Source: Mesorhizobium xinjiangense (lineage in GTDB: Bacteria; Pseudomonadota; Alphaproteobacteria; Rhizobiales; Rhizobiaceae). From it: a DNA stretch of 64,000 bases. This document shows, piece by piece, positions 2,832 to 64,000 of this stretch. The stretch is taken from the NCBI RefSeq assembly GCF_009749525.1, contig NZ_WOAC01000022.1, forward strand, positions 48,787-112,786, in the 5' to 3' direction. The notes beneath the pieces are model-generated. The model worked only from the letters and a program-made list of their open reading frames with translations, made no database searches and was not told where the DNA came from. Every line of letters begins with the position of its first letter. Positions within the stretch are counted from its first letter, which is position 1. A program made the translations under genes and the position numbers.

Positions 2832-3286
2832 TGAGCGAAACCGGTTCCTCGGGCTCCATGAACCCGACACGTCTTGTCCACGATGTGCTGCAGCCCGAAG
2901 GTTGGCCGCTGCCGAAGGGATATGCCAACGCCGTCATGGCCGAAAACGGCACCATCTACACCGGGGGCCTAGTCGGCTGGGACAGCGAGGGGCGGTTTCC
3001 CGAGAGCTTCGTCGGTCAGGCGCATCAGACCTTTCGCAATATTCGCGACGTTCTCGCCGTGGCTGGCGCGGGACCGGAACATCTGACCCGGCTCACCTGG
3101 TACGTCACCAGCATCGAGCAATATCTCGCCGACCCGAAAGGGCTCGGCGCGGCCTATCGCGATGTCTTCGGCCGCTGCTTCCCGGCAATGGCCACCGTCG
3201 AGGTCACGCGCCTGGTCGAGCCGAAGGCGCTGGTGGAGATCGAGGCAACGGCGGTGCTGCCCGTTGGCGCGCAGGCGCGCGGCTGA
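2828..3286 (+). CDS. RidA family protein (YjgF/YER057c/UK114)
   Basis: 152 residues with the RidA fold pattern: P-x-G-Y-x-N near residue 30, GLVGWDSEGRFP, a helix ending in NIRDVLAVAGAGPEHLTRLTWYV, then a C-terminal V-E-I-E-A-T-A-V strand. The R in the last E-I-E region that marks true imine deaminases is not evident, so it is a divergent subgroup. RidA proteins hydrolyse reactive enamines/imines released by amino-acid dehydrogenases or lyases. The neighbouring opine-dehydrogenase-like gene makes an imine-handling job plausible (inference). Start ATG at 2828 overlaps the MarR stop; an ATG at 2831 is an alternative. Confidence 0.88.
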   Translation: MMSETGSSGSMNPTRLVHDVLQPEGWPLPKGYANAVMAENGTIYTGGLVGWDSEGRFPESFVGQAHQTFRNIRDVLAVAGAGPEHLTRLTWYVTSIEQYLADPKGLGAAYRDVFGRCFPAMATVEVTRLVEPKALVEIEATAVLPVGAQARG

Positions 3287-3320
3287 CGGAACCTGTCCAA
3301 ACAATGGGAGCGGAACGATA

Positions 3321-4397
3321 ATGAAAATAGCGGTGATCGGAGGTGGCAATGGCTCCTACGCGGCGGCGGCGGATTTTGCCGAGGCGGGCCACGACGTGCG
3401 CTGGTGGCGGCGCGACCCCGAAAGCTTCTCCGACATTGCGGTCGCCGGCGGCATCACGCTGACCGATCACAAGGGCAGTCGGCATGTGGCGGTCGTGCCG
3501 AGCGACGATCTCGCCGCCGCGCTCGACGGGGCGGAACTGATCGTCGCGCCGACGCCGGCCTTCGCCCAGGAAGACATCGCCGCACGCCTGGCGCCGCACC
3601 TGGCCGACGGCCAGGTGATCTACCTGCCGCCCGGCACCTTCGGCTCCTACATCATGATGAAGTGCATTCGCGCCGCCGGCTCGACGGCCGACATCGCGAT
3701 TGCCGAGACGGGCACCTTGCCCTGGCTGACGCGCAAGCAGGGACCGCTCGAGGTGCGCGTGACGACGCGTGCCTCGCGCCTGCCGACCGGCGTCCTGCCG
3801 GCCCGCCACACCGAACGGGCGATTGCGGCGATTGCCGAGGCCTTTCCGGCGTCAATCGAGCCGCTCGACGACGCCTTGTCCGGTGCGCTGATGAATGCCG
3901 GGCCGATCATCCATCCGCCCCTGATCCTGATGAATGCCGGCCCGATCGAGCATTTCGAGCGCTGGGACATTCACAACGAGGGCACGCAGCCGGCGATCCG
4001 CCGTACCCACACCGCGCTCGACAATGAGCGCATCGCCATCCGCGAGGCGCTGGGCTACGGCGCGCCGCATTTCCCGCTCGCCGATCACTACGAGACGAGC
4101 AACTGGATGTATGGCAATCTGGCCCATGACAAGCTGGTGGGCTCGGGCGACTGGCACGAAAATCTCGACCTGAAGACGCACCGCTATATGCTCGAGGATA
4201 TCGGGCTCGGACTGGCCTTTCTCGTCTCGGTCGGCGAGTGGGCCGGTGTCCCTTGTCCGGTGGCGAGTGGTCTTCTGGCGATTGCCGGGGCTGTCGCCGA
4301 GCGCGATTTCCGCAAGGATGGCCGCACGATGGAAACGATCGGTCTTGCCGGAGACAGTCGCGACAAGGTGCAGACCATGCTGCGCGAGGGATTGTGA
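3321..4397 (+). CDS. NAD/NADP octopine/nopaline dehydrogenase family protein
   Basis: 358 residues. The N-terminal Rossmann domain starts with MKIAVIGGGNGSYAAAADF, and an all-helical C-terminal domain carries the family's NAGPIIHPP motif with His198 as the probable catalytic base, followed by a WMYG and HDKL region. Family members oxidise or form N-(carboxyalkyl) amino acids (opines). In a catabolic operon with RidA and two TRAP importers it would more likely split such a compound oxidatively to an amino acid and a keto acid (inference). Start chosen at the ATG after GGGAGCGGAACGATA; the TGA overlaps the next ATG by one base. Confidence 0.85.
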   Translation: MKIAVIGGGNGSYAAAADFAEAGHDVRWWRRDPESFSDIAVAGGITLTDHKGSRHVAVVPSDDLAAALDGAELIVAPTPAFAQEDIAARLAPHLADGQVIYLPPGTFGSYIMMKCIRAAGSTADIAIAETGTLPWLTRKQGPLEVRVTTRASRLPTGVLPARHTERAIAAIAEAFPASIEPLDDALSGALMNAGPIIHPPLILMNAGPIEHFERWDIHNEGTQPAIRRTHTALDNERIAIREALGYGAPHFPLADHYETSNWMYGNLAHDKLVGSGDWHENLDLKTHRYMLEDIGLGLAFLVSVGEWAGVPCPVASGLLAIAGAVAERDFRKDGRTMETIGLAGDSRDKVQTMLREGL

Positions 4398-50065: not shown

Positions 50066-52831
50066 TCAGCGCTCCTGCTTCCTGAGCATCAATATGCCCA
50101 ACCCCATGAGCACCGGAATGGCGATCAGCAGCGGCACGAAAGCGCTGGCAAGATCGCTGAATTCAAGCGCCTTCGAGAAGGTGCCGCGCGAGATCGTGAC
50201 GAAGTAGGTGGTGGGGAATATCGTGCCGATGAATGCTCCGGCCCCCTGGAGCGAGGATACCGGGTCGATCAGCCCCGAATACTGAACGGCCGGGATCATC
50301 GTCAAAAGCGCGGTGCCGAATATCGCCGCGATCTGGCTCTTGATGAAAGTCGATATGACCAGTCCAATTCCGGTCGTGATGATCGCGTAGAGGAACGCTG
50401 CGGCCATGAAGGTCAGAAAACTGCCGGTGAAGGGGACACGGAAGATGAACACCGCGAAAGCGGTCAGCATGAAGAAATTGACCATCGCCAGGACGACATA
50501 GGGGATCTGCTTGCCGACGAGAAATTCCAGCCGGGTGACCGGCGTCACATAGAAATTGATGATCGAGCCCAGTTCCTTCTCCCGTACCACGCTGAGAACC
50601 GACAGGATCGCCGGGATGATCAGCAGCAAGATGGGAATGACTGCCGGCACCATGGCCACCAGGCTTTGTATGTCGGGATTGTAGCGGTAGCGGATGGCAA
50701 GCTGAAATTCGCCGACCGTAGCGGCATCGCCGTAGAGCCGGCGCATCTCCTGCGTCAGCCAGGCCGTATGCATCCCCTGCACGTAGCCGCGAACGGTTTC
50801 TGCCCGCGACGGCATGGCGCCGTCGATCCAGGCGCCGATCTCAACGTCTGTGCCGCGCGCGATATGCCGTCCAAAGCCGGGCGGGATTTCGATTGCCAGG
50901 CTGAGCTCGCCATTGCGCATGCGCCGGTCGAGATCGGCATAGTCGGTGATCGGCGGGTGCTCGATGAAATAGCGCGAGCCGGAAATCTGCTGCACGTAAT
51001 TGCGGCTGATCGTCGTGTCGTCGTGGTCGAGCACGGCGAAGGTCAGGTCCTCGACATCCATGTTGATGCCGTAACCGATGACAAACATCAAAATGACGCT
51101 GCCGAGGATGGCCAGCGTGGCGCGGATCGGATCGCGCTGCAATTCCAAAGACTCGCGCCGTGTGTAGGCAAACATGCGCCGAAGGTCGAAAGATCGGTCG
51201 CGCACAGTCTGCTGGTGCGGCTCGGCCGCGCTTGCGGCTTGCGGCGTGTCCGGCTGCGCAGGCGCCTCCGGCTCGCCGATCGCCTCTTCCAGATAGGCAA
51301 TGAAGGCGTCTTCCAGCGTCGCCGCCTGTTTGCTGGCGGTGATTGCCGCCGGCGTGTCGCTGATCAGCACCTTGCCGGCATGCATGAGGGAGATGCGGTC
51401 ACAGCGCTCCGCCTCGTTCATGAAATGGGTGGAAACGAAGATGGTCACACCGTCCTGCCGCGACAAGTCGGACAGATTCTGCCAGAAGCTGTCGCGGGCG
51501 ACCGGATCGACGCCGGATGTCGGCTCGTCGAGAATGAGCATGTCGGGCGAATGGATCAGCGCCACGGCGAGCGACAAGCGCTGACGCATGCCCAGAGGCA
51601 GCGCGTCCGGCAGTTCGTCCATGTTGTCTGTCAGCCCGAACCGCTCGGCCATTTCGGCCACCCGGCCTGGAATTGCATCGGATGGCACGCTGAACAGCCT
51701 GGCATGCAGCTCGAAATTCTGCCGCACGGTCAATTCCGAATAGAGCGAGAAGGCCTGAGACATGTAGCCGACACGACGGCGGACTTCGAGATCGTTGGGA
51801 TCGACTTCCCGTCCGAAAAGCCGCGCCGTGCCTTCGCTCGCCGCCAGGAGCCCTGTCAGCATCTTCATCGTCGTCGTCTTGCCGCAGCCGTTGGAGCCGA
51901 GGAAGCCGAAGATCTCGCCGCGCTGGATGCCGAAGCTGACGTCGTCGACGGCGGTGAACGTGCCGAAACGCATGCTCAGATGCTCTGCCTCGATGGCCGG
52001 CTCGCCGGCGTCATTCGGCTTGCGGGGCGGAATGACCACCTCCTTGTATCCGCGCCGCTCGTCCTCGGGCAAAAGAGCGATGAAGGCCGCATCGAGCGTC
52101 GGCGCGCTGGTCTGGCGCAACAGCTCGGCTGGCGCCCCCGTGGCCAGGACATGCCCGGCATCCATGGCTACCAGCCAGTCGAAACGTGCCGCCTCGTCCA
52201 TATAGGCGGTCGCCACGACAACGCTCATGCCGGCCCGCTCGGCCCTGATCCGGTCGATGAGTTCCCAGAACTGGCGCCGGGCCAGCGGATCTACGCCGGT
52301 CGTTGGCTCGTCCAGGATCAAGAGATCGGGATCATGGATGAGTGCGCAGCACAGGCCGAGCTTTTGCTTCATGCCGCCTGAAAGCTTGCCCGCCGGACGG
52401 TCGGCGAATGCCGACAGGTCGGTGCTTTGCAGGAGATCGGCAATGCGCCGTTCGCGCTCTTCGCGGCCGTGGCCGAACAGCCGCCCGAAGAAGTCGATGT
52501 TTTCGAACACGGACAAGGTGGCATAGAGGTTCTTGCCGAGCCCTTGCGGCATATAGGCGATGCGCGGATAGACCGAGCGGCGATGACGCGGGTCGGCGAT
52601 GTCGCCGTCGAGGACCATGATGCGGCCCTCCTGCATTTCACGGGCTCCAGCGATGAGCGACAGAAGGCTGGATTTGCCCACCCCATCGGGGCCGATCAGC
52701 CCGACCATCGCCCCCGACGGCAAATCGAGCGTGATCGCGTCAAGCGCGCGTGTCGAGCCAAAGGACAGTCCGACAGACTCCAGCCGCGCGACAGGCGGTG
52801 CGTCCGTCATCGCGCTGTCCCGGCTATTCAT
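50066..52831 (-). CDS. rbbA: RbbA-like ABC exporter: two ATPase domains fused to an ABC-2 permease
   Basis: 921 residues. ATPase 1 has Walker [10 protein letters not shown] (~48) and the signature [12 protein letters not shown]; ATPase 2 has GSNGCGKTT (~320) and Walker [12 protein letters not shown]. From about residue 570 an ABC-2 membrane domain with a large periplasmic loop and five C-terminal helices. This is the YhiH/RbbA arrangement. The ATGA overlap with the HlyD gene supports the 52831 start; an internal ATG seven codons on is possible. Family members were linked to ribosome ATPase activity in E. coli, but with HlyD and ABC-2 partners export of a small molecule is more likely. Confidence 0.92.
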
Positions 52832-53898
52832 TCGACCAGCGTTCCGCTGAGGTTTTCAGGCCACTGCGCGTCCGCATCGAGCCTGACATAGGCAACGCCG
52901 GGCAGCCCCGTCTTGACCTGCTGGATATGCTCCTTCAGCAACGCCTCGGGAATCTGCGCCTTGATGCGGAACATCAGCTTCTCGCGCTCTTCCGCCGTTT
53001 CCACCGTCTTGGGCGTGAACTGCGCGACATCGGACACGAAGGACGCGGTGGCGGGAATGACATATTGCGGGGCCGCATCGAGGACGATACGGACTTCCGA
53101 TCCCATGGCAACTCGTCCGGCCTGTGCCGTTGGCAGGAAGAAGGTCATGTAGACGTCGCCGAGATCAACGAGATTGAGGACCCGACCGCCGGCCGACAGC
53201 ACCTCGCCCAGCTGCGCGACGCGGTATTGCACGCGCCCGGCTCGCGGCGAGCGCAAGGTGCTGTCATTGATATCGGCCTGGATGCTCTCGAGCTGCGCCT
53301 GGGCTGCATCGACAGCCGCCTTGGCATCGACGACCTGCGCCTTGGCGGAATGGGTGGCGGCGTCGCTCGCGGCGAGCTGTGCCTCGGCGGCGCTGCGCGC
53401 TGCGGTGGCGCCCTGCACTGTGGCCCGATCGTCGTCGAGCACCTGCTGCGATACCGCACTCGTCGTCACCAATCGCTCCGAGCGCTCGAAACGCTTCTGC
53501 GCCGCCTCAAGCTCGGCCGCGCGCTGCTCGATCACGGCCGCGGCCGCCTTGTATTCCGCCTGCCTCTGGACCACCAGGCTTTCGGCCGTTTCGACGCCGA
53601 TCCGGGCTCTCTGCAATTGTGCCTCGGCCTGACGATGCTGCGCCTCGAGCTGCTCGGTGTCCATCCGTGCGAGCACCTGGCCAGCCTCGACGAAATCCCC
53701 CTCATTGACGAGAACTTCGCGAATGCGCCCGGCCGTCTTGGTGGACACGTCAATCTCGACTGCCTCGATGCGCCCGTTGCCGCTGGCAAATCCGTCCGGA
53801 AGGCCGCGATCATCGAACGCCTGCCAGGCCCAGTAACCGGCAACCGCCACGACTGCGACGAGCACCGCCATCAGCGCACGCTTTCTGGACTCGGTCAT
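52828..53898 (-). CDS. HlyD family periplasmic adaptor (YhiI-like)
   Basis: 356 residues. One N-terminal membrane anchor ([19 protein letters not shown]), lipoyl-like half [29 protein letters not shown], a long coiled-coil hairpin rich in Ala/Glu/Gln (residues ~85-215), the second half-lipoyl segment [20 protein letters not shown], and a barrel domain. It bridges the inner-membrane exporter to an outer-membrane channel. AGGAA lies 8 bases before the ATG at 53898; a start 18 codons upstream has no support. Confidence 0.9.
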
Positions 53899-54112
53899 AT
53901 CAATGTTCCTCGGATTCGCTTCAAGAAGGAGGATGGCGCCGCGCCATAGCACCGGCGATCAGGCTGAAAATTCACGCTATGCGTTAGAAAGCACGTGCCG
54001 CTTTCGCGGGTACCGGCGAAGCGTTCGAAGCCCGTGAAGCTCGATAAGCGCACTTTGACCAAGGCGGGTCTTCCGGCAATACCAACCTACTCGTAACGGT
54101 AGCATAGTTGCA

Positions 54113-54392: not shown

Positions 54393-55085
54393 TTACGCGG
54401 GCCCCGGGGCGTTGCGGTCGGTGAGATAGCTGACAAGCATCCGTTCGATATGAACCCGGCGCTGAGCGAGCCAGTCCGGGTCCGAAAGGTCCTGTGCGAA
54501 GATCACCGAAAGCGTGAACTGGCTCAGCAAGTGCAACTGGCTCAGCGCCACGATCGAGACATAGAGCTGGACCGGGTCGACATCGCCGCGAAACACGCCC
54601 TGGCCCTGTCCGCGGTCCAGAATGCCCCGAATCGTCTCGACCAGCGGCAGGGTCATCGCCTGAACGTGCGGCAGGCGTTTCAGGAAACGGCCCTTCATCG
54701 TGTTCTCGCTATTGATGAGCGCGAGCACGTCGCGGCGCGCGGCAAAGAAGTCGAAGGTAAAGCCGATCAGCTTGCGAATGCCCTCCAATGGCTCGGCATG
54801 CGTGAGGTCGAGCTTGTTCTCGCCTTCGCGGATCTCGCCGTAAATCGTCTCCAGGACCGCGAGGTAGACCCCCTCCTTGCTGCCGAAATAGTGGTAGATC
54901 ATGCGCATGTTCGCCTTGCTCTTCCTGGCGATGCGTTCGACTCTGGCGCCGCTGAATCCGTAAAGACAGAACTCGGATTTTGCCGCATTTAGAATCGCTT
55001 GACGGGATTTCTTTGCGTTGCGCTCCCGCTTGGGGCGGTCCTCGCCCGCCAATTCATCCGTCACCGCGTTCCTCCCACCACTCAT
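54393..55085 (-). CDS. TetR family transcriptional regulator (RutR-like)
   Basis: 230 residues. TetR HTH: ILNAAKSEFCLYGFSGARVERIARKSKANMRMIYHYFGSKEG. The effector domain has ALINSENTMKGRFLKR, VDPVQLYVSIVALSQLHLLS and FTLSVIFAQDL, the pattern of RutR/YcdC-type regulators, which sense pyrimidines and related small amides. GGAGAG lies just upstream of the ATG at 55085. It is divergent from the Ntn-hydrolase gene and shares with it the operator at 55185; two more copies of that site lie ahead of the TRAP and fdrA units. A role for the exporter operon downstream is possible but is interrupted by the IS remnant. Confidence 0.87.
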   Translation of the reverse strand: MSGGRNAVTDELAGEDRPKRERNAKKSRQAILNAAKSEFCLYGFSGARVERIARKSKANMRMIYHYFGSKEGVYLAVLETIYGEIREGENKLDLTHAEPLEGIRKLIGFTFDFFAARRDVLALINSENTMKGRFLKRLPHVQAMTLPLVETIRGILDRGQGQGVFRGDVDPVQLYVSIVALSQLHLLSQFTLSVIFAQDLSDPDWLAQRRVHIERMLVSYLTDRNAPGPA

Positions 55086-55168
55086 TGCTCTCCAAAAACT
55101 TCTGCTGCGGCCATCGATTGAAGTGTAACGACTTTTCGTCCGCCGGTCATGCATCGGGAACGCAGGGC

Positions 55169-55199
55169 TTGACAATACCGCAATAAGTAAAAAGATAAT
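55169..55199 (+). promoter_or_regulatory. Promoter of Ntn-hydrolase gene
   Basis: -35 TTGACA (55169-55174) and -10 GATAAT (55194-55199) with 19-base spacing, about 48 bases before the ATG at 55247. The -10 lies inside the shared operator. Confidence 0.5.
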
Positions 55200-55204
55200 T
55201 ACAT
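55185..55204. promoter_or_regulatory. Shared operator site 1 (AAGTAA-N8-TTAC)
   Basis: AAGTAAAAAGATAATTACAT has GTAA (55187-55190), 8 bases, and TTAC (55199-55202). It lies in the divergent gap between the TetR and Ntn-hydrolase genes and overlaps the predicted -10. Confidence 0.65.
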
Positions 55205-55246
55205 ATGCCGGCCTTACAGGCTGCCCGACGACATGCGAGGAATCCG

Positions 55247-56839
55247 ATGTTGCAGACGAAGCGCGGCTATGCGGGCATGGTCACGGCCCCTCATCATCTT
55301 GCCGCCCAGGCGGGACTGGAGGTCTTGCGCGACGGCGGCAATGCCATCGAGGCGATGATCGCCGCGGCCGCGACGATCGCGGTGGTCTATCCGCATATGA
55401 ACGGCCTGGGGGGAGACGGCTTCTGGCTCATCGGGCGGTCGGGCGAAGTGCCGACGGCGATCCGGGCCTGCGGCCGGTCGGCCGCACTGGCTTCGCGCGA
55501 CTGGTATCGCGGGCAGGGGGTCTCGCAGATTCCCTCGCGCGGGCCGCTTGCCGCGCTGACCGTGGCCGGAACGGTGGCCGGCTGGCAGTCGGCCCTTGCG
55601 CTGAGCCGCGAGCGCCACGGCGGGCGGCTGCCGCTCGGCCGTCTCCTTGAACACGCCATCCGGCACGCCGCCGACGGTGTGCCGGTGCCGCGCACCCTTC
55701 ACGAAAACGCGCGCAACAAGATTGCGGAGCTGCGGGACGTGCCGGGCTTTGCGGACGTGTATCTGGAGGATGGGTCGCCGCCCGCCGTCGGGTCGCGGCT
55801 GCGCCAGGAGCGCGTGGCAGCCACGCTCGAGCGTCTGGCCGAGGCCGGTCTGGGCGACTTCTATCGTGGCGACTTGGCCAGATCCCTGGCGCGTGATCTG
55901 GAGGCGGCGGGCAGCCCGATTCGTCTCCCGGACCTGGAAGAACACGAAGCGCCGGTCGTGGCGCCGCTCGGCGTCAATGTGGGGCGCCACAAGGTCTACA
56001 ACCTTCCGCCGCCGACCCAGGGCCTGGCCTCGCTTCTCCTGCTTGCGCTCTACGATCGGGTTGCGGCCGAGGAAGCAGACGGCGTCGCCCACGTGCACCG
56101 CCTGGTGGAATGCACCAAGGCGGCATTCCAGGTGAGAGACCGGAATGTGACGGACCCCGACTACATGAAGTGTCCGGCCACCTCCTCTCTCGATGCCCGG
56201 TCCATCGATGCCCTCGCCGCGCGGATATCGAAGGAGAAGGCCGCGCCCTGGCCGCATCCTTCGGAACCGGGCGACACGGTATGGCTCGCCGCCGCCGACG
56301 GGCAGGGTCTCGTAGTCAGTTTCATTCAGAGCATCTACTGGGAGTTCGGCTCCGGGCTCGTCCTGCCGGCCTCGGGCGTGACCTGGCAGAACCGCGGTAC
56401 GAGCTTCAGCATGGAAGCGGACCATCTCAACCGGCTCGAGCCGCGGCGCTTGCCGTTTCACACGATCCAGCCCGCAATGGCCGAACTCTCCGACGGCCGG
56501 CTGATGGCATACGGAACCATGGGCGGCGAGGGCCAGCCGCAGTCCCAGGCCGCGATCTTCACGCGCCACGTCCTTTACGGGCAGGAACTGCAGGCGGCGG
56601 TGACGGCTCCGCGGTGGCTGCTGGGGCGCACCTGGGGCGAGGAAGCGACCAACCTCAAGCTGGAGGCGCGTTTCGACGAGGAAGTCGTCGCGGGGCTTGA
56701 GCAGCGCGGTCACGATCTGGTCGTTGTCGGGCCGTTCGAGGAAATGATGGGACATGCAGGCGCCATCGTGCGTCATCCCGACGGGCTGCTGGAGGGCGCC
56801 AGCGACCCGCGCAGTGATGGCGTTGTTGCAGTGCGGTAG
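55247..56839 (+). CDS. Gamma-glutamyltransferase-family Ntn-hydrolase (HpxW/oxamate amidohydrolase-like)
   Basis: 530 residues, no signal peptide, close to cytoplasmic HpxW in length. GGT-fold landmarks: AAQAGLEVLRDGGNAIEAMIAA, PHMNGLGGDGFWL, and the probable self-cleavage/nucleophile Thr344 in PGDTVWLAAADGQG, where ordinary GGTs have a TTH motif. It lacks the glutathione-binding Arg/Ser pattern, so amide hydrolysis rather than glutamyl transfer is expected; HpxW cleaves oxamate to oxalate and ammonia. The neighbouring FdrA, DUF1116 and carbamate kinase genes suit an oxamate-related pathway. AGGAA precedes the ATG at 55247; an ATG at 55205 sits in the operator. Confidence 0.82.
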   Translation: MLQTKRGYAGMVTAPHHLAAQAGLEVLRDGGNAIEAMIAAAATIAVVYPHMNGLGGDGFWLIGRSGEVPTAIRACGRSAALASRDWYRGQGVSQIPSRGPLAALTVAGTVAGWQSALALSRERHGGRLPLGRLLEHAIRHAADGVPVPRTLHENARNKIAELRDVPGFADVYLEDGSPPAVGSRLRQERVAATLERLAEAGLGDFYRGDLARSLARDLEAAGSPIRLPDLEEHEAPVVAPLGVNVGRHKVYNLPPPTQGLASLLLLALYDRVAAEEADGVAHVHRLVECTKAAFQVRDRNVTDPDYMKCPATSSLDARSIDALAARISKEKAAPWPHPSEPGDTVWLAAADGQGLVVSFIQSIYWEFGSGLVLPASGVTWQNRGTSFSMEADHLNRLEPRRLPFHTIQPAMAELSDGRLMAYGTMGGEGQPQSQAAIFTRHVLYGQELQAAVTAPRWLLGRTWGEEATNLKLEARFDEEVVAGLEQRGHDLVVVGPFEEMMGHAGAIVRHPDGLLEGASDPRSDGVVAVR

Positions 56840-56871
56840 AGGAGGCAGTCTTTCGATGCAGTTTGCCCCAG

Positions 56872-56891
56872 AAGTAATAAAGTGTTTACAT
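56872..56891. promoter_or_regulatory. Shared operator site 2 (AAGTAA-N8-TTAC)
   Basis: AAGTAATAAAGTGTTTACAT has GTAA (56874-56877), 8 bases, and TTAC (56886-56889). It lies in the 112-base gap before the TRAP receptor gene and matches site 1 closely. Confidence 0.65.
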
Positions 56892-56951
56892 ACTAAAAGG
56901 GTGCCGGGTCGCCGCCCGCCGCCTACACAAGAAAACAATGAATGGCAACCA

Positions 56952-57962
56952 ATGGGAGATAAATTGGTGCGACACATGCTTCTTGCTGTGCTCGGTATGA
57001 GCGCAATTCTTCTCACGAACGAGGGCGCCGCAGCCCAGACGATCTTAAAATTCCATCACGACCTGCCCGAAGACAGCGCCCAGCACGTGGCGGCCGAGCG
57101 GTTCCGCGATTTGGTCGCGGAGCGCACGGACGGGGCGATCGAGGTGAAGATCTTTCCCAACAACTCGCTTGGCGACGACGTTCAGGCAACCCAGCAGATG
57201 CAGTTCGGCGCAATCGAAGGCGGCATCGTTCCGACAGCCAAATTGTCGAACTTCCAGCCGGCCATGCAATTGCCGGACCTGCCCTTCCTCTTTCCCTCTC
57301 CGGCCATCGCGCACGCATTCCTCGACAGCGAGATCGGCGATGAGCTTTTGGCTTCGCTTGACGCGGTCGGTCTCAAGGGCGTGACCTTCTGGGAAAGTGG
57401 GTTCAAGCAGTTCACCTGCAACAATCCGGTCAAGGTGCCTTCCGACTTCAATGGCCGCAAGGTCAGGGTCATGGAGAGCCCGATCATCATCGCCCAGTTC
57501 CGGGCCATGGGCTCGACCCCTGTGCCGATCGCATTTTCCGAGACCTACACGGCGCTGCAGCAGGGGGTGGTCGACTGCCAGGAAAATCCCCTCGTGTCGA
57601 TCGTCAAGATGAAGTTCCACGAGGTGCAGTCGGACGTGGTGATCAGCAACCATGCCTATCTCGGCTATGCCCTGGTGTTCAGCAAGCGCTGGTTCGAGAA
57701 GCTCGACGAGGCGACGCAGACCATCCTTGTCGATGCCGCGCGCGAGGTCACCGCGCTGGAACGCGAGGAAACCGCGAAGCGCGAGGCCGGCTATATAGAG
57801 ACGATCCGCCAGAGCCGCGCGACGCTCAGTGAACTGCCGGCCGACAATCGCGGCGCCTTCGAGAAAGCGACGCGGTCCGTCCACGACGAGTTCCGTGACG
57901 CGATCGGCGCCGAGCTGCTCGACAAGACATACCGCAAGATCGACGAGCTGACCGACTCCTGA
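56952..57962 (+). CDS. TRAP transporter substrate-binding protein (DctP family)
   Basis: 336 residues. Signal peptide core LLAVLGMSAILLT, cleaved near AAAQ. Mature features: LPEDSAQHVAAERFRDLV, LGDDVQATQQMQFGAIEGG, the NGRKVRVMESPI segment with the substrate-carboxylate Arg, and ALQQGVVDCQENPLV. The ATG at 56952 has no strong ribosome site; a GTG at 56967 has GGGAGA seven bases upstream and may be the true start. Receptor of the TRAP system within the oxamate-type cluster; a small dicarboxylate monoamide or ureido acid is a candidate ligand (inference). Confidence 0.9.
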   Translation: MGDKLVRHMLLAVLGMSAILLTNEGAAAQTILKFHHDLPEDSAQHVAAERFRDLVAERTDGAIEVKIFPNNSLGDDVQATQQMQFGAIEGGIVPTAKLSNFQPAMQLPDLPFLFPSPAIAHAFLDSEIGDELLASLDAVGLKGVTFWESGFKQFTCNNPVKVPSDFNGRKVRVMESPIIIAQFRAMGSTPVPIAFSETYTALQQGVVDCQENPLVSIVKMKFHEVQSDVVISNHAYLGYALVFSKRWFEKLDEATQTILVDAAREVTALEREETAKREAGYIETIRQSRATLSELPADNRGAFEKATRSVHDEFRDAIGAELLDKTYRKIDELTDS

Positions 57963-57966
57963 CGGT

Positions 57967-57998
57967 CCGTTCTCCCCTCAACAGGGGCGGTTTCTTCT
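57967..57998 (+). terminator. Intercistronic attenuator-like hairpin after TRAP receptor gene
   Basis: CCCCT and AGGGG with a CAAC loop, extended by CCG/CGG across a 4-base bulge, followed by TTTCTTCT. It lies just after the receptor stop and 55 bases before the small-permease start; partial termination here would keep the receptor in excess. Confidence 0.6.
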
Positions 57999-58052
57999 AA
58001 ACTCGGGGGCCGCCCGCGATTTTTGGCGCAAGCCCAATCGGCGAGGCACGCA

Positions 58053-58556
58053 ATGCTCGAACGATTTGACCGGGTGCTGTCCCGGGCCGAGGACGTCTTT
58101 ATCGTAACACTTCTGGTTACGGCATCGGCAATTCTCTTCGTCAATGTCGTAGCGCGGTACTTCTTCAACACCGGCCTTGTTTGGGCCGAGGAGTTCGTGC
58201 GCTACGAGATCGTCTGGCTGGTCTTCATCGGCGGCAGCGTGGCAACGCGCAAGGGCATCCATATCGGTGTCGAGATGGTACTTCACATGCTGCCCGCTCC
58301 GGCGCAGCGGCTGCTCAACATCTGCGTCGGGGTCGCTTGCGTCGCCTTCTGCCTTGCGCTGGCGATATACGGGTTAGAGCTGGTGGCGCAGACGAAGCAG
58401 TTTGGTCAGCGCAGCTCGGCCATGCAGATCCCCTTCTGGATCGTGCAACTGGCAATCCCTGTCGGGGCGGGCCTGATGGCGCTGCGCTTTGCCCAACGCC
58501 TCTATCTCGAGATCGCGGGCACATATCGCCGCAGCGAAACCGCAATACTCAACTGA
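58053..58556 (+). CDS. TRAP transporter small permease (DctQ family)
   Basis: 167 residues, four membrane helices, with VNVVARYFFNTGLVWAEEFVRY, the strongest DctQ signature. GAGG lies 6 bases before the ATG at 58053; a TTG at 58023 in frame is rejected. Acts with the receptor and DctM on either side. Confidence 0.92.
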   Translation: MLERFDRVLSRAEDVFIVTLLVTASAILFVNVVARYFFNTGLVWAEEFVRYEIVWLVFIGGSVATRKGIHIGVEMVLHMLPAPAQRLLNICVGVACVAFCLALAIYGLELVAQTKQFGQRSSAMQIPFWIVQLAIPVGAGLMALRFAQRLYLEIAGTYRRSETAILN

Positions 58557-58575
58557 TCGCGCGGGGAAACAACAG

Positions 58576-59856
58576 ATGACGCCGTTCTTCTTCTCTCTCC
58601 TCGCGGTCCTCCTGGCCAGCAGCATCCCCATCTTCATCGTGCTCGCCGGCGCGGTGACGACGGCGATGTGGTTGCAGGGCATGCCGCTGGCGTTGGTCGT
58701 CGAGCGGATGTTCTCCGGCATCGACTCCTTCGCCTTGATGGCAATCCCGTTCTTCGTGCTCACCGGCAATCTGATGGGCATCGGGGGGCTGTCGAAGCGG
58801 TTGATCCGGTTTGCCGACCTTGTCGTGGGACGGATGACCGGCGGGCTTGGAATCACCGCCGTCACGTCGTCGATGTTCTTCGGCGCCATTTCCGGCTCGA
58901 GCCCTGCCACGGTCGTCGCCGTGGGCGGCATCCTATATCCGGCACTTAAGGACGGCGGCTACGGCCGCGACTTCTCGATCGGCCTGATCGTGGCGTCCGG
59001 CTCGCTCGGCATCATCATCCCGCCGAGCATCGTGATGATCGTCTATGCAGCGGTGACCGGCACCTCGGTCGGGGCCCTGTTCATGGCGGGCATCGGTGCG
59101 GGTCTCGTCTACGGTCTCGTCTTCATGGGGTATGCCGCCATCCATGCCAAACGGCATAACGTGCCGCGCAGCCCGACGCCGACCTGGCCCGAGATCCGGG
59201 ACGGCTTCAAGGACGCATCCTGGGGGCTTGGCGTGCCCGGCGTCATCCTCGGCGGCATCTACGGCGGCGTCTTCACGCCGACCGAGGCCGCTGCGGTCTC
59301 GGTCGTCTACGCATTTTTCGTGTCCGCGTTCATCTACCGGGAAAAGACCATCGTGGAACTGCTCGTTGCAGTTCGCGATTCCGCCGCAACAACGGCCCAG
59401 GTGATGATCATCCTTTCCGCGGCCGCCCTGCTTGCCTGGTATCTGACGTCCACCGGTCTTGCCGTGGCGATGACCAACGCCATCCTGTCGATCAGCGAAA
59501 ACCCGATACATCTGTTCATGCTGATCAATGTCGCCGTGCTGCTGGCCGGCATGTTCCTCGACGGCGCCTCGATCATGGTGATCCTGGCGCCCCTGTTCTA
59601 CAAGGTCGGCGTTCTGGTCGGGATCGATCCGGTTCATCTCGGCGTCGTGCTGACAGTGAACGGGGCGATCGGCATGTTCACGCCGCCATTCGGCCTCAAC
59701 CTCTTCGTTGCCAGCAGTCTGGGTAAGGTGACCTACGAGCAGGCCGTGCGCGGCGCCCTGCCGTTCGTGGCACTCGCCATCATCGCCCTGATGATCGTCA
59801 CCTACGTTCCCGGAATCAGCATGTGGCTTCCGCGTCTTCTCTACGCGGGCATGTAG
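58576..59856 (+). CDS. TRAP transporter large permease (DctM family)
   Basis: 426 residues, about twelve helices. Motifs: GSSPATVVAVG, LGIIIPPSIVMIVYAAVTG and FTPPFGLNLFVASS. The ATG at 58576 is 19 bases after the dctQ stop with GGGGAAAC upstream. Completes the TRAP system; the next transcription unit begins 130 bases later with its own promoter. Confidence 0.93.
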   Translation: MTPFFFSLLAVLLASSIPIFIVLAGAVTTAMWLQGMPLALVVERMFSGIDSFALMAIPFFVLTGNLMGIGGLSKRLIRFADLVVGRMTGGLGITAVTSSMFFGAISGSSPATVVAVGGILYPALKDGGYGRDFSIGLIVASGSLGIIIPPSIVMIVYAAVTGTSVGALFMAGIGAGLVYGLVFMGYAAIHAKRHNVPRSPTPTWPEIRDGFKDASWGLGVPGVILGGIYGGVFTPTEAAAVSVVYAFFVSAFIYREKTIVELLVAVRDSAATTAQVMIILSAAALLAWYLTSTGLAVAMTNAILSISENPIHLFMLINVAVLLAGMFLDGASIMVILAPLFYKVGVLVGIDPVHLGVVLTVNGAIGMFTPPFGLNLFVASSLGKVTYEQAVRGALPFVALAIIALMIVTYVPGISMWLPRLLYAGM

Positions 59857-59919
59857 CGCTTCGGGCCACTCCAACTGAAGGCGAATACACAGGCGTCAAC
59901 GGGGATTCGCTGTGATCGT

Positions 59920-59948
59920 TTGACAAGTAAAAACTTACTTACTAAATT
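59920..59948 (+). promoter_or_regulatory. Promoter of the fdrA-type operon
   Basis: -35 TTGACA (59920-59925), 17 bases, -10 TAAATT (59943-59948), about 40 bases before the first ATG at 59986. The spacer is filled by the shared operator. Confidence 0.7.
59925..59944. promoter_or_regulatory. Shared operator site 3 (AAGTAA-N8-TTAC)
   Basis: AAGTAAAAACTTACTTACTA has GTAA (59927-59930), 8 bases, and TTAC (59939-59942), lying between -35 and -10, where a bound regulator would block transcription. A nested AAGTAA-N4-TTACTT repeat also exists. Confidence 0.7.
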
Positions 59949-59985
59949 ACCCGGGAAGCTGTCAGTCAGAAAGGGAAGGCGGGTC

Positions 59986-60174
59986 ATGTGTGCTGAGGAA
60001 AACAGGGAGCTGAAGCCGCTGCTGGCGAATCGGGTCAAGGTCATCAATGTCGGTCTGGAGGGCTTTGTGGGCGAACTCAGGGCCTGCGGCATCGAGGTGA
60101 CGCATGTCGATTGGAGGCCGCCTGCCGGCGGCGATCCGAAGATGGCCGCTCTCCTTGCGAAGCTCGGTGTTTAG
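59986..60174 (+). CDS. Small FdrA-associated protein, 62 aa
   Basis: 62 residues; the core reads NRVKVINVGLEGFVGELRAC then a VDWRPPAGGD motif. GGAAGG precedes the ATG. It is the first gene of the unit and ends 12 bases before the DUF1116 gene. From memory, a V-I-N-x-G-L ... H-V-D-W-x-P-P-A-G-G segment occurs as an end portion of longer FdrA-type proteins, so this looks like a detached domain of that system; I could not check it. A nucleotide- or subunit-binding role is a guess. Confidence 0.72.
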   Translation: MCAEENRELKPLLANRVKVINVGLEGFVGELRACGIEVTHVDWRPPAGGDPKMAALLAKLGV

Positions 60175-60186
60175 GTGGGTCCCGCG

Positions 60187-61437
60187 ATGCGATTGATAGA
60201 AAAAGCGAACAAGGAAGCGCTCCAGCGCATGCTCGAGGCCGAGCCGGTGCTGAGCGACATTGTGCCGGCGGGCGAGGTGATCTCCGGCCTGAAGGGACGC
60301 CGGATCCTGCATGCCGGCCCGCCGATCGGCTGGGAGCGGATGTGCGGCCCGATGCAGGGCGCAGTCGCCGGTGCGATCGTGTTCGAGGGCTGGGCGGCCG
60401 ATCTCGACGCCGCCTTCAAGCTCGCGGCCGAAGGCGGCGTGGAATTTCATCCCAATCACCATTTCGACGCCGTGGGCCCTATGACCGGCATGATTACCGC
60501 CTCCATGCCGGTGTTCGTGGTCGAGAACCGGCGCTTCGGTAACCGGGCCTATTGCACGGTCAACGAAGGCCTCGGCAAGGTCATGCGCTTTGGCGGCAAT
60601 GACGAGAGCGTCCTCAACCGTCTCGCCTGGCTGCGCGACGTCTTCGGGCCCGAACTCGCCAAGGCGATCCGTGCGCGCGACGGTATCGAGCTCAAGTCGA
60701 TCGTGGCGCGCGGCCTGTCGATGGGCGACGAACTGCATCAGCGCAACGTCGCCTGTTCAAGCATCTTCCTGCGCGAGATCGCGCCATCGCTGGCCCGCAC
60801 CTGTGGCGACACCGACAGGCTGGCCGACAGTCTGGCCTTCATCGCCGGCAACGACCAGTTCTTCCTCAATGTTGCGATGGCGATGGGCAAGGCGATCATG
60901 GATCCCGTCAGGGGTATCCGCGGTTCCACCATCGTCACTGCAATGTGCCGCAACGGGACCGAATTCGGCATACGCACGAGCGGCACGGAAGACAGATGGT
61001 TTACGGCGCCGGTCGAGATGCCCGAAGGGCTCTATTTCCCGGGGTTCTCGGAAGCCGACGCCAATCCCGACATGGGCGATTCGACGATCGTCGAGACGAT
61101 CGGGCTGGGCGGCTTCGCCATGGCTGCTTCTCCCGCCGTGGCCGGATTCGTCGGTGCGGGGTCACCCTCCTCGGCCGCCAGTTTCACCAGGTCGATGGGC
61201 GAGATCACCGCCGGACAGAATCCCGAATGGACAATTCCCGCGCTCGATTTTGCCGGCGTGCCGACGGGCATCGACGTCCGGCTCGTCGTCGAGAGCGGGC
61301 TTGCGCCCACCATCAACACCGGCATTGCGCATCGCGAACCGGGCGTCGGCCAGGTTGGTGCCGGCGTTGTGAAGGCGCCGATAGCCTGTTTCGAAAAGGC
61401 CGTGTTGGCCATCGCCGAGGAGCTCGAAGTGGCATGA
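60187..61437 (+). CDS. DUF1116 protein (YlbE/AllG-like subunit of oxamic transcarbamylase)
   Basis: 416 residues. Characteristic stretches: GRRILHAGPPIGWERMCGPM, EFHPNHHFDAVGPMTGMITA, ENRRFGNRAYCTVNEGLGKV and MCRNGTEFGIRTSGTEDRWF, all matching my memory of DUF1116/YlbE. In E. coli the YlbE protein with FdrA and YlbF forms oxamic transcarbamylase (oxalurate + phosphate to oxamate + carbamoyl phosphate). AGGTGG precedes the ATG at 60187; a GTG at 60175 directly after the previous stop is less likely. The ATGA overlap with fdrA indicates a complex. Confidence 0.85.
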   Translation: MRLIEKANKEALQRMLEAEPVLSDIVPAGEVISGLKGRRILHAGPPIGWERMCGPMQGAVAGAIVFEGWAADLDAAFKLAAEGGVEFHPNHHFDAVGPMTGMITASMPVFVVENRRFGNRAYCTVNEGLGKVMRFGGNDESVLNRLAWLRDVFGPELAKAIRARDGIELKSIVARGLSMGDELHQRNVACSSIFLREIAPSLARTCGDTDRLADSLAFIAGNDQFFLNVAMAMGKAIMDPVRGIRGSTIVTAMCRNGTEFGIRTSGTEDRWFTAPVEMPEGLYFPGFSEADANPDMGDSTIVETIGLGGFAMAASPAVAGFVGAGSPSSAASFTRSMGEITAGQNPEWTIPALDFAGVPTGIDVRLVVESGLAPTINTGIAHREPGVGQVGAGVVKAPIACFEKAVLAIAEELEVA

Positions 61438-62969
61438 CTGCATTCGTTCTCAACGAGATCCGCAAGGGCTTCTACCTCGATTCAGTCGCCCTGATGCGGC
61501 TGTCGCGCGAGATCGCGGCGCTGCCCGGCGTGCGCGAAGCCGCTCTCATGATGGCCACGCCGGCAAACAAGGCGATCCTGCGCGATGCCGGGCTGCTTGA
61601 GAGCGGCGACGTTGAAGCGCATGGCAACGACCTCGTCGTCGCCATGCGCGCCGACGATGAGCCGACTGCACGCGCCGCGCTCGGCCAGGCGCTGCTGGCG
61701 CTCGATGGCCGGAAGACGCAGTCGGGGGCGCACGACGCATGGACACCGCGCAGCATTGCCGCGGCAGTATCGGCAGCGGCGGACGCAAACCTCGCCCTGA
61801 TCTCGGTCCCCGGCGAATTTGCCGCCGCCGAGGCGCGCAAGGCTCTTCGGCACGGCCTTCATGTCATGATGTTCAGCGACAACGTATCGATCGAGGATGA
61901 ATTGTCCTTGAAGCAGGAGGCACGTGAGCGCGGCCTGCTGCTGATGGGCCCGGATTGCGGCACGGCGATCATCGGCGATGCACCGCTCGCCTTCGCCAAC
62001 AAGATCAAACGTGGCCCGGTCGGCATCATCGGCGCGTCCGGCACCGGCACGCAGGAAGTGTCATGCCTCCTGTCGGAAGCCGGATCGGGTGTATCGCATG
62101 CCATAGGGGTGGGCGGTCGCGACCTGAAGAAGGAGGTCGGCGGCATTACGACTCTGATGGCGATCGATGCGCTGGATGCCGATGAGGCGACCGAACGGGT
62201 CGTGCTCATTTCGAAGCCGCCCCATCCCGATGTCGCCAGGACCGTGCTTGCCCGCATCGCGAAGAGCTCGAAGCCTTATACCGTCTGCTTCATCGGTTTG
62301 GAACAAGTCGAGGTGCCGGCCAATGCAACCTTTGCGCCGACGCTGAAGGACGCCGCGAAGGCGGTTTTGGGCGGGCTTCGCATTGGCTCCGGTTTCGATG
62401 CGTCGGCCATCGCTGCAAGGCATGGCGTGCCGGCAGGACGCGGGGCGCGCATCGAAGGCCTTTTCGCGGGCGGAACACTGTGCGCTGAGGCTCAGGTATT
62501 TTTGAAGAATGCCGGGCGTCGCGTGTCATCAAATGCGCCGGTGCCCGGCGTCGCCGTCCTCGAGAACGCACAGCCAGGGCAGGGCGACAGGATCCTTGAC
62601 CTCGGGGCCGACGAATATACGCGTGGGCGCCCGCATCCCATGATCGATCCGTCGATACGCGACGACGCGCTCAGGACGGCACTCGAAAACACCGACATTG
62701 CCGTCATCCTCCTGGACCTGATCATCGGCTATGGCGCGCACAGCGACCCCGCCGGCCATCTTGCGGAGGTCATCGCGGGACGCCGGCCGGATGCGCCCCT
62801 GATCATCGGTTCGGTCACCGGTACGGAGGCCGACCCGCAGATACGGTCCCGTCAGGTCCGCACGCTCGAGGAGGCCGGTGTGCTGGTGGCGCCATCCAAC
62901 GCCCAGGCCTGTGAAGTCGCTCTCAAGGTCCTGGCAACGGTGAAAGGCGAAGTCGATGCGCACGCTTGA
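61434..62969 (+). CDS. fdrA: FdrA family protein (acyl-CoA synthetase-like; AllF-like)
   Basis: 511 residues. The N-terminal part has FVLNEIRKGFYLDSVALMRL, typical of FdrA; next a CoA-binding-like domain (RHGLHVMMFSDNVSIEDEL, RGLLLMGPDCGTAIIGDAPL, GIIGASGTGTQEVSCLL), then a succinyl-CoA-ligase-like domain with GGTLCAEAQVFL, LDLGADEYTRGRPHPMID and VTGTEADPQ. It lacks the C-terminal end seen in longer FdrA; the 62-aa protein at 59986 may supply it. Partner of the DUF1116 protein and upstream of carbamate kinase, overlapping it by 14 bases. Confidence 0.88.
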   Translation: MTAFVLNEIRKGFYLDSVALMRLSREIAALPGVREAALMMATPANKAILRDAGLLESGDVEAHGNDLVVAMRADDEPTARAALGQALLALDGRKTQSGAHDAWTPRSIAAAVSAAADANLALISVPGEFAAAEARKALRHGLHVMMFSDNVSIEDELSLKQEARERGLLLMGPDCGTAIIGDAPLAFANKIKRGPVGIIGASGTGTQEVSCLLSEAGSGVSHAIGVGGRDLKKEVGGITTLMAIDALDADEATERVVLISKPPHPDVARTVLARIAKSSKPYTVCFIGLEQVEVPANATFAPTLKDAAKAVLGGLRIGSGFDASAIAARHGVPAGRGARIEGLFAGGTLCAEAQVFLKNAGRRVSSNAPVPGVAVLENAQPGQGDRILDLGADEYTRGRPHPMIDPSIRDDALRTALENTDIAVILLDLIIGYGAHSDPAGHLAEVIAGRRPDAPLIIGSVTGTEADPQIRSRQVRTLEEAGVLVAPSNAQACEVALKVLATVKGEVDAHA

Positions 62970-63915
62970 GGAACTTCCCCGCCGCCTCGTGATCGCCATT
63001 GGCGGCAATGCCACCCATCCGGAGGATATTGCCGGCACGTCGCAGGAGCAGAAGGCTGTCGCCAGGCGCACGGCGAAGGCGCTGCTGCAGATTGCCCAGA
63101 TGGACACCGAACTCATCATCACGCATGGCAACGGCCCCGTCGTCGGCAAGATCATGATGCGGCAGATGCTGACGATGGACCGCATCCCGCCTATGTCGAT
63201 GGATATTTGCGTCGCCCACAGCCAGGGTGGCATCAGCTACCTGCTGATGCAGGCGATGGAGAACGCCTTGCGCAAGGTCGGCAATCCGCGCCATGTCGCC
63301 AGCCTCATGACGCAGGTCGAAGTGGACCCCGACGATCCGGCGTTCTCCAATCCGACCAAATTCGTCGGGCCCTTTTTCTCCAAGGAAGAGGCCGAGCGGA
63401 TCAGCGCCGAGCTGGACTGGCTGATGAAGGAGGATTCCGGCCGCGGCTGGCGCCACGTCGTACCTTCTCCCAAACCGAAGCATATCTGCGACATTTCGCT
63501 TGTCGATGCGCTGATCAAGCGCGGTACTATCGTGATTGCAGGCGGCGGCGGCGGCATTCCCGTTGTCCGGTCCGCCAACGGGGTACGCGACGGCTTGCCG
63601 GCGGTCATCGACAAGGATCTGACGTCGGCCCACATGGCCAATATCCTTGGCATCAAGGAACTGCTGATCCTCACGGCGGTGCCCCGCGTCGCCGTCGATT
63701 TCGGCAAGCCGAGCCAGAGGGAGCTCGCAAACGTCACGCTCGACGAACTCAGGGCCTATCGCGACCAGGGGCACTTCCCGCCGGGCAGCATGGGCCCCAA
63801 GGTGGATGCGGCGATCCGCTTCCTGGAAAACGGCGGGCAGCGCGCGATCATCAGCGATCTCGAATGCGCCGTGCCGGCCTTGCTGGGGGAAACCGGAACG
63901 CATGTCACGCATTAA
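62956..63915 (+). CDS. Carbamate kinase (ArcC/AllK family)
   Basis: 319 residues. Amino-acid kinase fold motifs: LVIAIGGNA, THGNGPVVGKIM, SPKPKHICDISLVDALIKRG, AGGGGGIPVV and VIDKDLTSAHMANIL, all standard for carbamate kinases (carbamoyl phosphate + ADP to carbamate + ATP). Placed after FdrA and DUF1116, it would harvest ATP from carbamoyl phosphate, as AllK does in E. coli. The TAA stop is immediately followed by an IS5-type insertion. Confidence 0.93.
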   Translation: MRTLEELPRRLVIAIGGNATHPEDIAGTSQEQKAVARRTAKALLQIAQMDTELIITHGNGPVVGKIMMRQMLTMDRIPPMSMDICVAHSQGGISYLLMQAMENALRKVGNPRHVASLMTQVEVDPDDPAFSNPTKFVGPFFSKEEAERISAELDWLMKEDSGRGWRHVVPSPKPKHICDISLVDALIKRGTIVIAGGGGGIPVVRSANGVRDGLPAVIDKDLTSAHMANILGIKELLILTAVPRVAVDFGKPSQRELANVTLDELRAYRDQGHFPPGSMGPKVDAAIRFLENGGQRAIISDLECAVPALLGETGTHVTH

Positions 63916-64000
63916 GGCCTGTTGAGATTCATCGTGAATTTATGACGGCGGCTGCGAGATGGATGATGGCAATGAACGAGGTGTCGGTTTTGTCGGCGCG
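63916..64000. mobile_element. IS5-family insertion sequence, end portion
   Basis: The element begins with GGCCTGTTGAGATTCA directly after the carbamate kinase stop, the kind of terminal sequence found in IS5-family (IS427-type) elements, and continues past the window edge. Insertion at a TTAA/TAA fits the short TA-type targets of this group. The rest of the element and its target duplication are out of view. Confidence 0.65.
63929..64000 (-). CDS. IS5 family transposase, C-terminal fragment (window edge)
   Basis: The last 23 codons on the minus strand read RADKTDTSFIAIIHLAAAVI then NSR and a stop, the usual C-terminus of IS5-family transposases (R-x-D-K-x ... I-H-L-A-A-x-V-I). The 5' part of the gene lies beyond the window. 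Confidence 0.75.
   Translation of the reverse strand, partial: RADKTDTSFIAIIHLAAAVINSR

Follow-up and report, generated by a model that had tools for sequence, protein, structure and literature searches.

Results

Gene content of the island

The window analysed here is a stretch of 64,000 nucleotides from Mesorhizobium xinjiangense (assembly GCF_009749525.1, contig NZ_WOAC01000022.1, positions 48,787 to 112,786). It forms the right end of that contig, which we call C15, in a genome of 5.26 Mb and 53 contigs, and carries a gene island that probably serves the use of oxalurate. On the reverse strand, a TetR-family regulator (54393-55085; PF00440, PF17938), whose longest frame starts at 55175 and for which we chose the ATG at 55085 as start, is divergent from an HpxW-like Ntn-hydrolase, a predicted oxamate amidohydrolase (55205-56839; G_glu_transpept, 427.6 bits) for which an alternative start at the ATG at 55247 is possible. 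The hydrolase gene and all those that follow it lie on the forward strand. The three parts of a TRAP importer are present together: the solute receptor DctP (56952-57962; PF03480, 293 bits), the small permease DctQ (58023-58556; PF04290) and the large permease DctM (58570-59856; PF06808, 383.1 bits). Then come a protein of 62 residues (59986-60174) matching positions 500-554 of the 555 in the NCBIfam FdrA model; AllG (DUF1116), a subunit of oxamate carbamoyltransferase (60175-61437; PF06545, 306.3 bits against a cut-off of 27); the body of AllF/FdrA without its C-terminal domain (61434-62969; FdrA model positions 6-496); and an AllK/ArcC-like carbamate kinase (62956-63915; NF009007, 330.6 bits against a cut-off of 266). 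The original prediction, made from the letters alone, had named the genes from the hydrolase to the kinase in this order, and family matches bear it out.

AllG is 51.7% identical to its E. coli counterpart over 414 residues. The AllF body is 41.6% identical to E. coli AllF (502 residues; residues 6-489) and scores 496.7 bits with NF004760, above the cut-off of 433; both subunits are thus present. The carbamate kinase, 37.9% identical to E. coli AllK, passes the subfamily model NF009007 and falls just below the cut-off of the equivalog TIGR00746 (357.9 bits against 358.25). The closest solved chains of the hydrolase are 5hft_A, the best, and 5hft_B, matched over residues 22-542 of 544, and its Thr358 aligns with residue 1 of the small chain 5hft_B and is the predicted nucleophile. 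We take 5hft to be Klebsiella HpxW; the structure listing names it gamma-glutamyltranspeptidase. A classical gamma-glutamyltransferase was considered for this gene and rejected, the score with TIGR00066 being 301.1 bits against a cut-off of 357.85.

The split of AllF and the places of its C-terminal domain

The 62-residue protein aligns to residues 505-554 of E. coli AllF at 46% identity, and the FdrA model is covered by the large FdrA from 6 to 496 and by the small protein from 500 to 554. Judged by these alignments, AllF is split here, and what had been described as a small FdrA-like protein is indeed present and is, more precisely, the C-terminal domain that the AllF body lacks. When 5.8 billion proteins were searched with it, lengths of only 0.55-1.75 times that of the query being admitted, 543 proteins of similar length had E <= 0.001, the query counted; 120 of them were listed.

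For comparison we used the best 80 of 321 AllG relatives in named genomes, whose AllG is 69-81% identical to that of the window (loci carry L-numbers, L004 being the one on contig C40 of this genome). Of the 80, 66 have the domain as a free protein immediately ahead of allG and 13 have it fused to the N-terminus of AllG; it went undetected once, in L098, whose contig starts just before allG. Among 29 loci of the order (L005-L033) it is free in seven, on AllG in two, on FdrA in four and undetected in 16, namely L017, which has FdrA, and 15 short loci with divergent AllG (28-43% identical). A further 17 loci of the phylum have it on FdrA (three) or on AllG (ten), with four undetected; in E. coli it forms the end of AllF. 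One Gly, one Phe, one Trp and one Pro are invariant across 81 copies of the domain. The AllG tree (76 rows) requires at least seven changes among the three states, rows in which no domain was detected being left aside; it comes from a quick search, 21 of its 73 inner branches are open and its long branches are flagged. Loci with an adjacent FdrA read either FdrA-domain-AllG or domain-AllG-FdrA, and the domain is always 5' of allG. We infer that it belongs at the contact between AllF and AllG. The AllG fold, run on the protein of L102, matches 3clq, an AllG homologue from Enterococcus faecalis that is numbered 56-474 in a chain of 421 residues; this would fit a construct without such an N-terminal domain.

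Some relatives depart from this arrangement. L078, L082 and L085 hold a creatininase-family protein, a free domain, AllG and AllH with no FdrA seen nearby, and some AllG-AllH systems may thus use another partner. The divergent AllG-family proteins of L019-L033 and L154-L156 (about 28-43% identical), in whose short loci neither FdrA nor the domain was recognised, are possibly a different enzyme family. Twelve Bradyrhizobium loci (L046, L048, L050-L056, L058, L060, L075) have a second FdrA-AllG pair beyond the first cluster, adjoining a Bmp-type nucleoside ABC importer; the second AllG has a weakly matching domain at its N-terminus.

Putative operators of the TetR regulator

The window has three copies of the palindrome GTAA-N8-TTAC where 0.02 would be expected: as GTAAAAAGATAATTAC (55187..55202) between tetR and hpxW, as GTAATAAAGTGTTTAC (56874..56889) before dctP and the TRAP genes, and as GTAAAAACTTACTTAC (59927..59942) before the small-domain gene and the transcarbamylase operon. 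The longer form AAGTAA-N8-TTACWW is found three times in the whole 5.26 Mb genome, always in the island, and its reversed control once. These putative operators give sequence support to the single regulon that had been proposed. Homologues of the regulator (at least 43% identity and 100 bits) are present in 31 of the 80 loci, which hold 37 sites spread over 19 loci; 23 half-site words of like composition give at most 13. The spacer of 8 accounts for those 37 sites, against 0-7 at each of the remaining lengths between 4 and 12, and every one of the 40 sites, the three of the window counted, has a cluster gene no more than 250 bp downstream. In L041 the palindrome precedes hpxW/tetR, the small domain and the TRAP genes, which sit elsewhere in the island relative to tetR. 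The protein that binds the palindromes is, we infer, the divergent TetR.

AllH and the end of the contig

The third subunit lies outside the window. A search of the genome for the AllH family gives a single match, on contig C40, with an open frame of 296 residues (PF11392, 74.9 bits against a cut-off of 25), so the subunit is present. The final 86 bases of the window (63915..64000), up to the terminus of C15, are filled by the end of an insertion sequence that starts on the last base of the kinase stop codon, and at the start of C40 stands the other end of an element of this kind, followed by allH (L004 132-1022). This insertion-sequence end is found at 15 places in the genome, so that the element by itself is no proof of a join. 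The join is supported by two features of the relatives: allH directly follows the kinase gene in 31 of the 80 loci, with four more pairs 4-8 kb apart, and after allH L041 and L042 hold the genes found on C40 (GntR, LivK, LivH, LivMGF, AmhA), which stand on C40 in a different order and direction. Contigs C15 and C40 would accordingly be joined through one copy of the insertion sequence. At all 12 of the 15 places that we viewed, TA abuts the end of the element, and in 10 of these 12 the contig seemingly stops within about 90 bases; the insertion sequence probably broke the assembly. Past allH, C40 (L004 1106-9525) carries two amidohydrolases of the cytosine-deaminase/N-isopropylammelide type, a LIV-type ABC importer and a GntR regulator. 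At the other side of the island, an ABC exporter fusion and an HlyD-like protein, judged by eye, adjoin tetR on the same strand (50066-53952, reverse).

Partner genes and distribution

HpxW is present in 44 of the 80 loci. Ureidoglycine-glyoxylate aminotransferase (UGXT), the enzyme that yields oxalurate, occurs in 22, and 13 of them have HpxW as well. Its representative scores 553.5 bits with 3nnk, listed as 'Ureidoglycine-glyoxylate aminotransferase', and 474.1 with PucG (3isl), and the passage on B. subtilis in PMC5270733 agrees with this role. Amidohydrolases are found in 26 of the 80 loci and never with UGXT. After dereplication at 93%, which leaves 51 named loci, UGXT is in 19, an amidohydrolase in 8 and both in none (Fisher p = 0.019, kinship beyond 93% being ignored). 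That the two never share a locus supports their being alternative suppliers of one intermediate, oxalurate. A protein with the polysaccharide-deacetylase fold (CE4, PuuE-like) occurs in 21 of the 80 loci, for example in L052 at 2865-3893, and might, as a cyclic imide hydrolase, open parabanate. Parabanate arises when urate reacts with singlet oxygen, and when the pH is neutral or alkaline it hydrolyses to oxalurate (PMC5703782).

Regarding uptake, the original prediction had suggested a survey for TRAP genes beside FdrA-type loci. Such neighbours exist, in L041 and L102, and in these two of the 80 loci only, which makes TRAP an occasional partner; DctP of the window is 77% and 64% identical to theirs, respectively. 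L102, from another phylum in the NCBI taxonomy, has its TRAP genes directly before domain-AllG, and no palindrome. LIV-type ABC genes are present in 27 of the 80 loci, once together with UGXT (L076).

Of 397 genomes of the order, 33 have AllG-family genes, as do 16 of the 398 from the phylum; both counts include this genome. In its own family, one of 20 other sampled genomes has such a gene, in a distant form (41%), and the island seems to be accessory in that family.

Discussion

We regard the island as probably a regulated, stand-alone system for oxalurate utilisation, its substrate and reactions being read from the genes and their neighbours. The TRAP importer would bring in oxalurate, and the split transcarbamylase, formed by the AllF body, the free domain, AllG and AllH, would convert oxalurate and phosphate into oxamate and carbamoyl phosphate. 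The carbamate kinase would turn the latter into ATP, ammonia and CO2, and the HpxW-type enzyme would hydrolyse oxamate to oxalate and ammonia; an oxalyl-CoA decarboxylase encoded elsewhere in the genome (1020 bits against a cut-off of 739) could process oxalate further. The LIV-type importer and the two cytosine-deaminase-like amidohydrolases of C40 may supply oxalurate from a cyclic precursor, for which parabanate is the simplest candidate. The original prediction had seen two routes in the transcarbamylase and the hydrolase; both enzymes are present, and a single pathway in which they act in succession is the better reading. Its proposal of an oxalurate/oxamate system with its own uptake remains the best reading, with a chemistry that is largely supported. 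AllH, which it could not have seen, lies off the window. That there is no allantoin pathway holds for the window and fails for the genome, which encodes a PuuE allantoinase and an OHCU decarboxylase on contig C44.

Several observations weigh against this interpretation. The 80 loci were chosen by likeness to the AllG of the window, the association tests ignore kinship beyond the 93% dereplication, and the separation of UGXT from LIV after dereplication is weaker (p = 0.07). TRAP orthologues are rare, and UGXT was not found in this genome, where the best match to the query is partial, with 26% identity and 71 bits. As for regulation, the exact palindrome is absent from 12 of the 31 TetR-bearing loci, all of them Bradyrhizobium, while 11 palindromes stand in 7 of the 49 loci in which no TetR was detected, a set in which the control word TTGA is commoner (35); no such palindrome was found at the genes of C40. 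Finally, AllH is the least conserved subunit, with 33.7% identity to E. coli over 104 residues, and the insertion sequence beside the kinase gene, which would stand between kinase and allH if the join is right, may lower AllH expression here.

Among the alternatives, the one that survives best, unlikely as we consider it, is that the transcarbamylase uses another ureido acid, such as an N-carbamoyl amino acid or a hydantoin-derived ureide, and that the Ntn-hydrolase cuts the corresponding half-amide. The amidohydrolases and the amino-acid-type ABC importer of C40 would suit such a substrate, as would the pairing of AllG and AllH with a creatininase-family protein in L078, L082 and L085. However, UGXT points to oxalurate and HpxW to oxamate, and with AllG so well conserved across the 80 loci a change of substrate is possible and not needed. 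More doubtful still is a TRAP importer unrelated to the pathway, which would carry C4-dicarboxylates or keto acids and stand by chance between hpxW and the transcarbamylase operon. Its rarity among the relatives would agree with this, and DctP, which matches 93 distinct sequences of solved TRAP receptors, is close to none of them. But a copy of the palindrome stands before the TRAP genes of the window and also before those of L041, which lie at a different place relative to tetR, and in L102, from another phylum, the TRAP genes adjoin domain-AllG. Equally improbable is a decaying island, in which an insertion sequence severed allH, the transcarbamylase is dead in this strain and only the use of oxamate by HpxW remains: the element does end at the kinase stop codon with AllH past its opposite end on C40, but the frames are open, those of the kinase and of AllH among them, and insertion sequences can carry outward promoters.

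The use of oxalurate as such is old knowledge, as the titles of two papers indicate. In one, from 1965, parabanic acid reportedly induces oxamate transcarbamylase; in the other, by Vander Wauven et al. in 1986, Streptococcus (now Enterococcus) faecalis ATCC 11700 is said to have an oxalurate catabolic pathway with its own carbamate kinase. Oxalurate catabolism with a dedicated carbamate kinase would therefore be common to that organism and to the island; we know of no link to TRAP, HpxW or TetR there. The genes of oxamic transcarbamylase were assigned only in 2024: according to PMC11326118, E. coli requires all of AllF, AllG and AllH for it, AllF-AllG-AllH is a purified and assayed enzyme whose operon is shared with the carbamate kinase gene allK, and its discoverers state that it has no similarity to other transcarbamylases. 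AllF, AllG, AllH and a carbamate kinase are common to E. coli and to the island. In the latter, however, the last 55 or so residues of AllF are separate and precede allG, the gene order differs, HpxW and TRAP are added with no allantoin genes adjacent, and allH is on another contig beside an insertion-sequence end. With the Hpx pathway of Klebsiella (HpxY/Z, then HpxW) the island would share HpxW-type hydrolysis of oxamate after the cleavage of oxalurate (5hft; PMC5270733, in the passage on this pathway). The oxalurate step would be an ATP-conserving transcarbamylase here, whereas Klebsiella uses an amidase (PMC12625717 for the role of HpxY). No xanthine or urate genes were found among those of the island, other purine genes of the genome not having been searched for. 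Nitrifiers, according to PMC12625717, have allFGHK beside biuret/triuret genes and bmpA-nupABC; they resemble the island in holding oxalurate genes without an upstream purine pathway and differ in transporter and partner genes, and the words 'TRAP' and 'split' are absent from the main text of that paper. In the literature searched we found no account of a split or moving AllF domain, of a link to TRAP or of the palindrome.

A broader proposal, to which we give somewhat less than even chances, is that the domain could shift between subunits, from the tail of AllF to a free state or to the head of AllG, because it serves the AllF-AllG interface or a shared active site, giving a transcarbamylase of four chains. 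TetR-controlled islands would then let bacteria without UGXT use extracellular oxalurate, for instance that arising from urate and singlet oxygen through parabanate.

In each case in which it is detected, as the end of AllF, free or as the start of AllG, the domain stands next to AllG, which points to the place where the subunits meet. The island is a plausible dedicated route to scavenge oxalurate with a TRAP importer, and its analysis names a regulator, a putative operator and candidate importers for this function.

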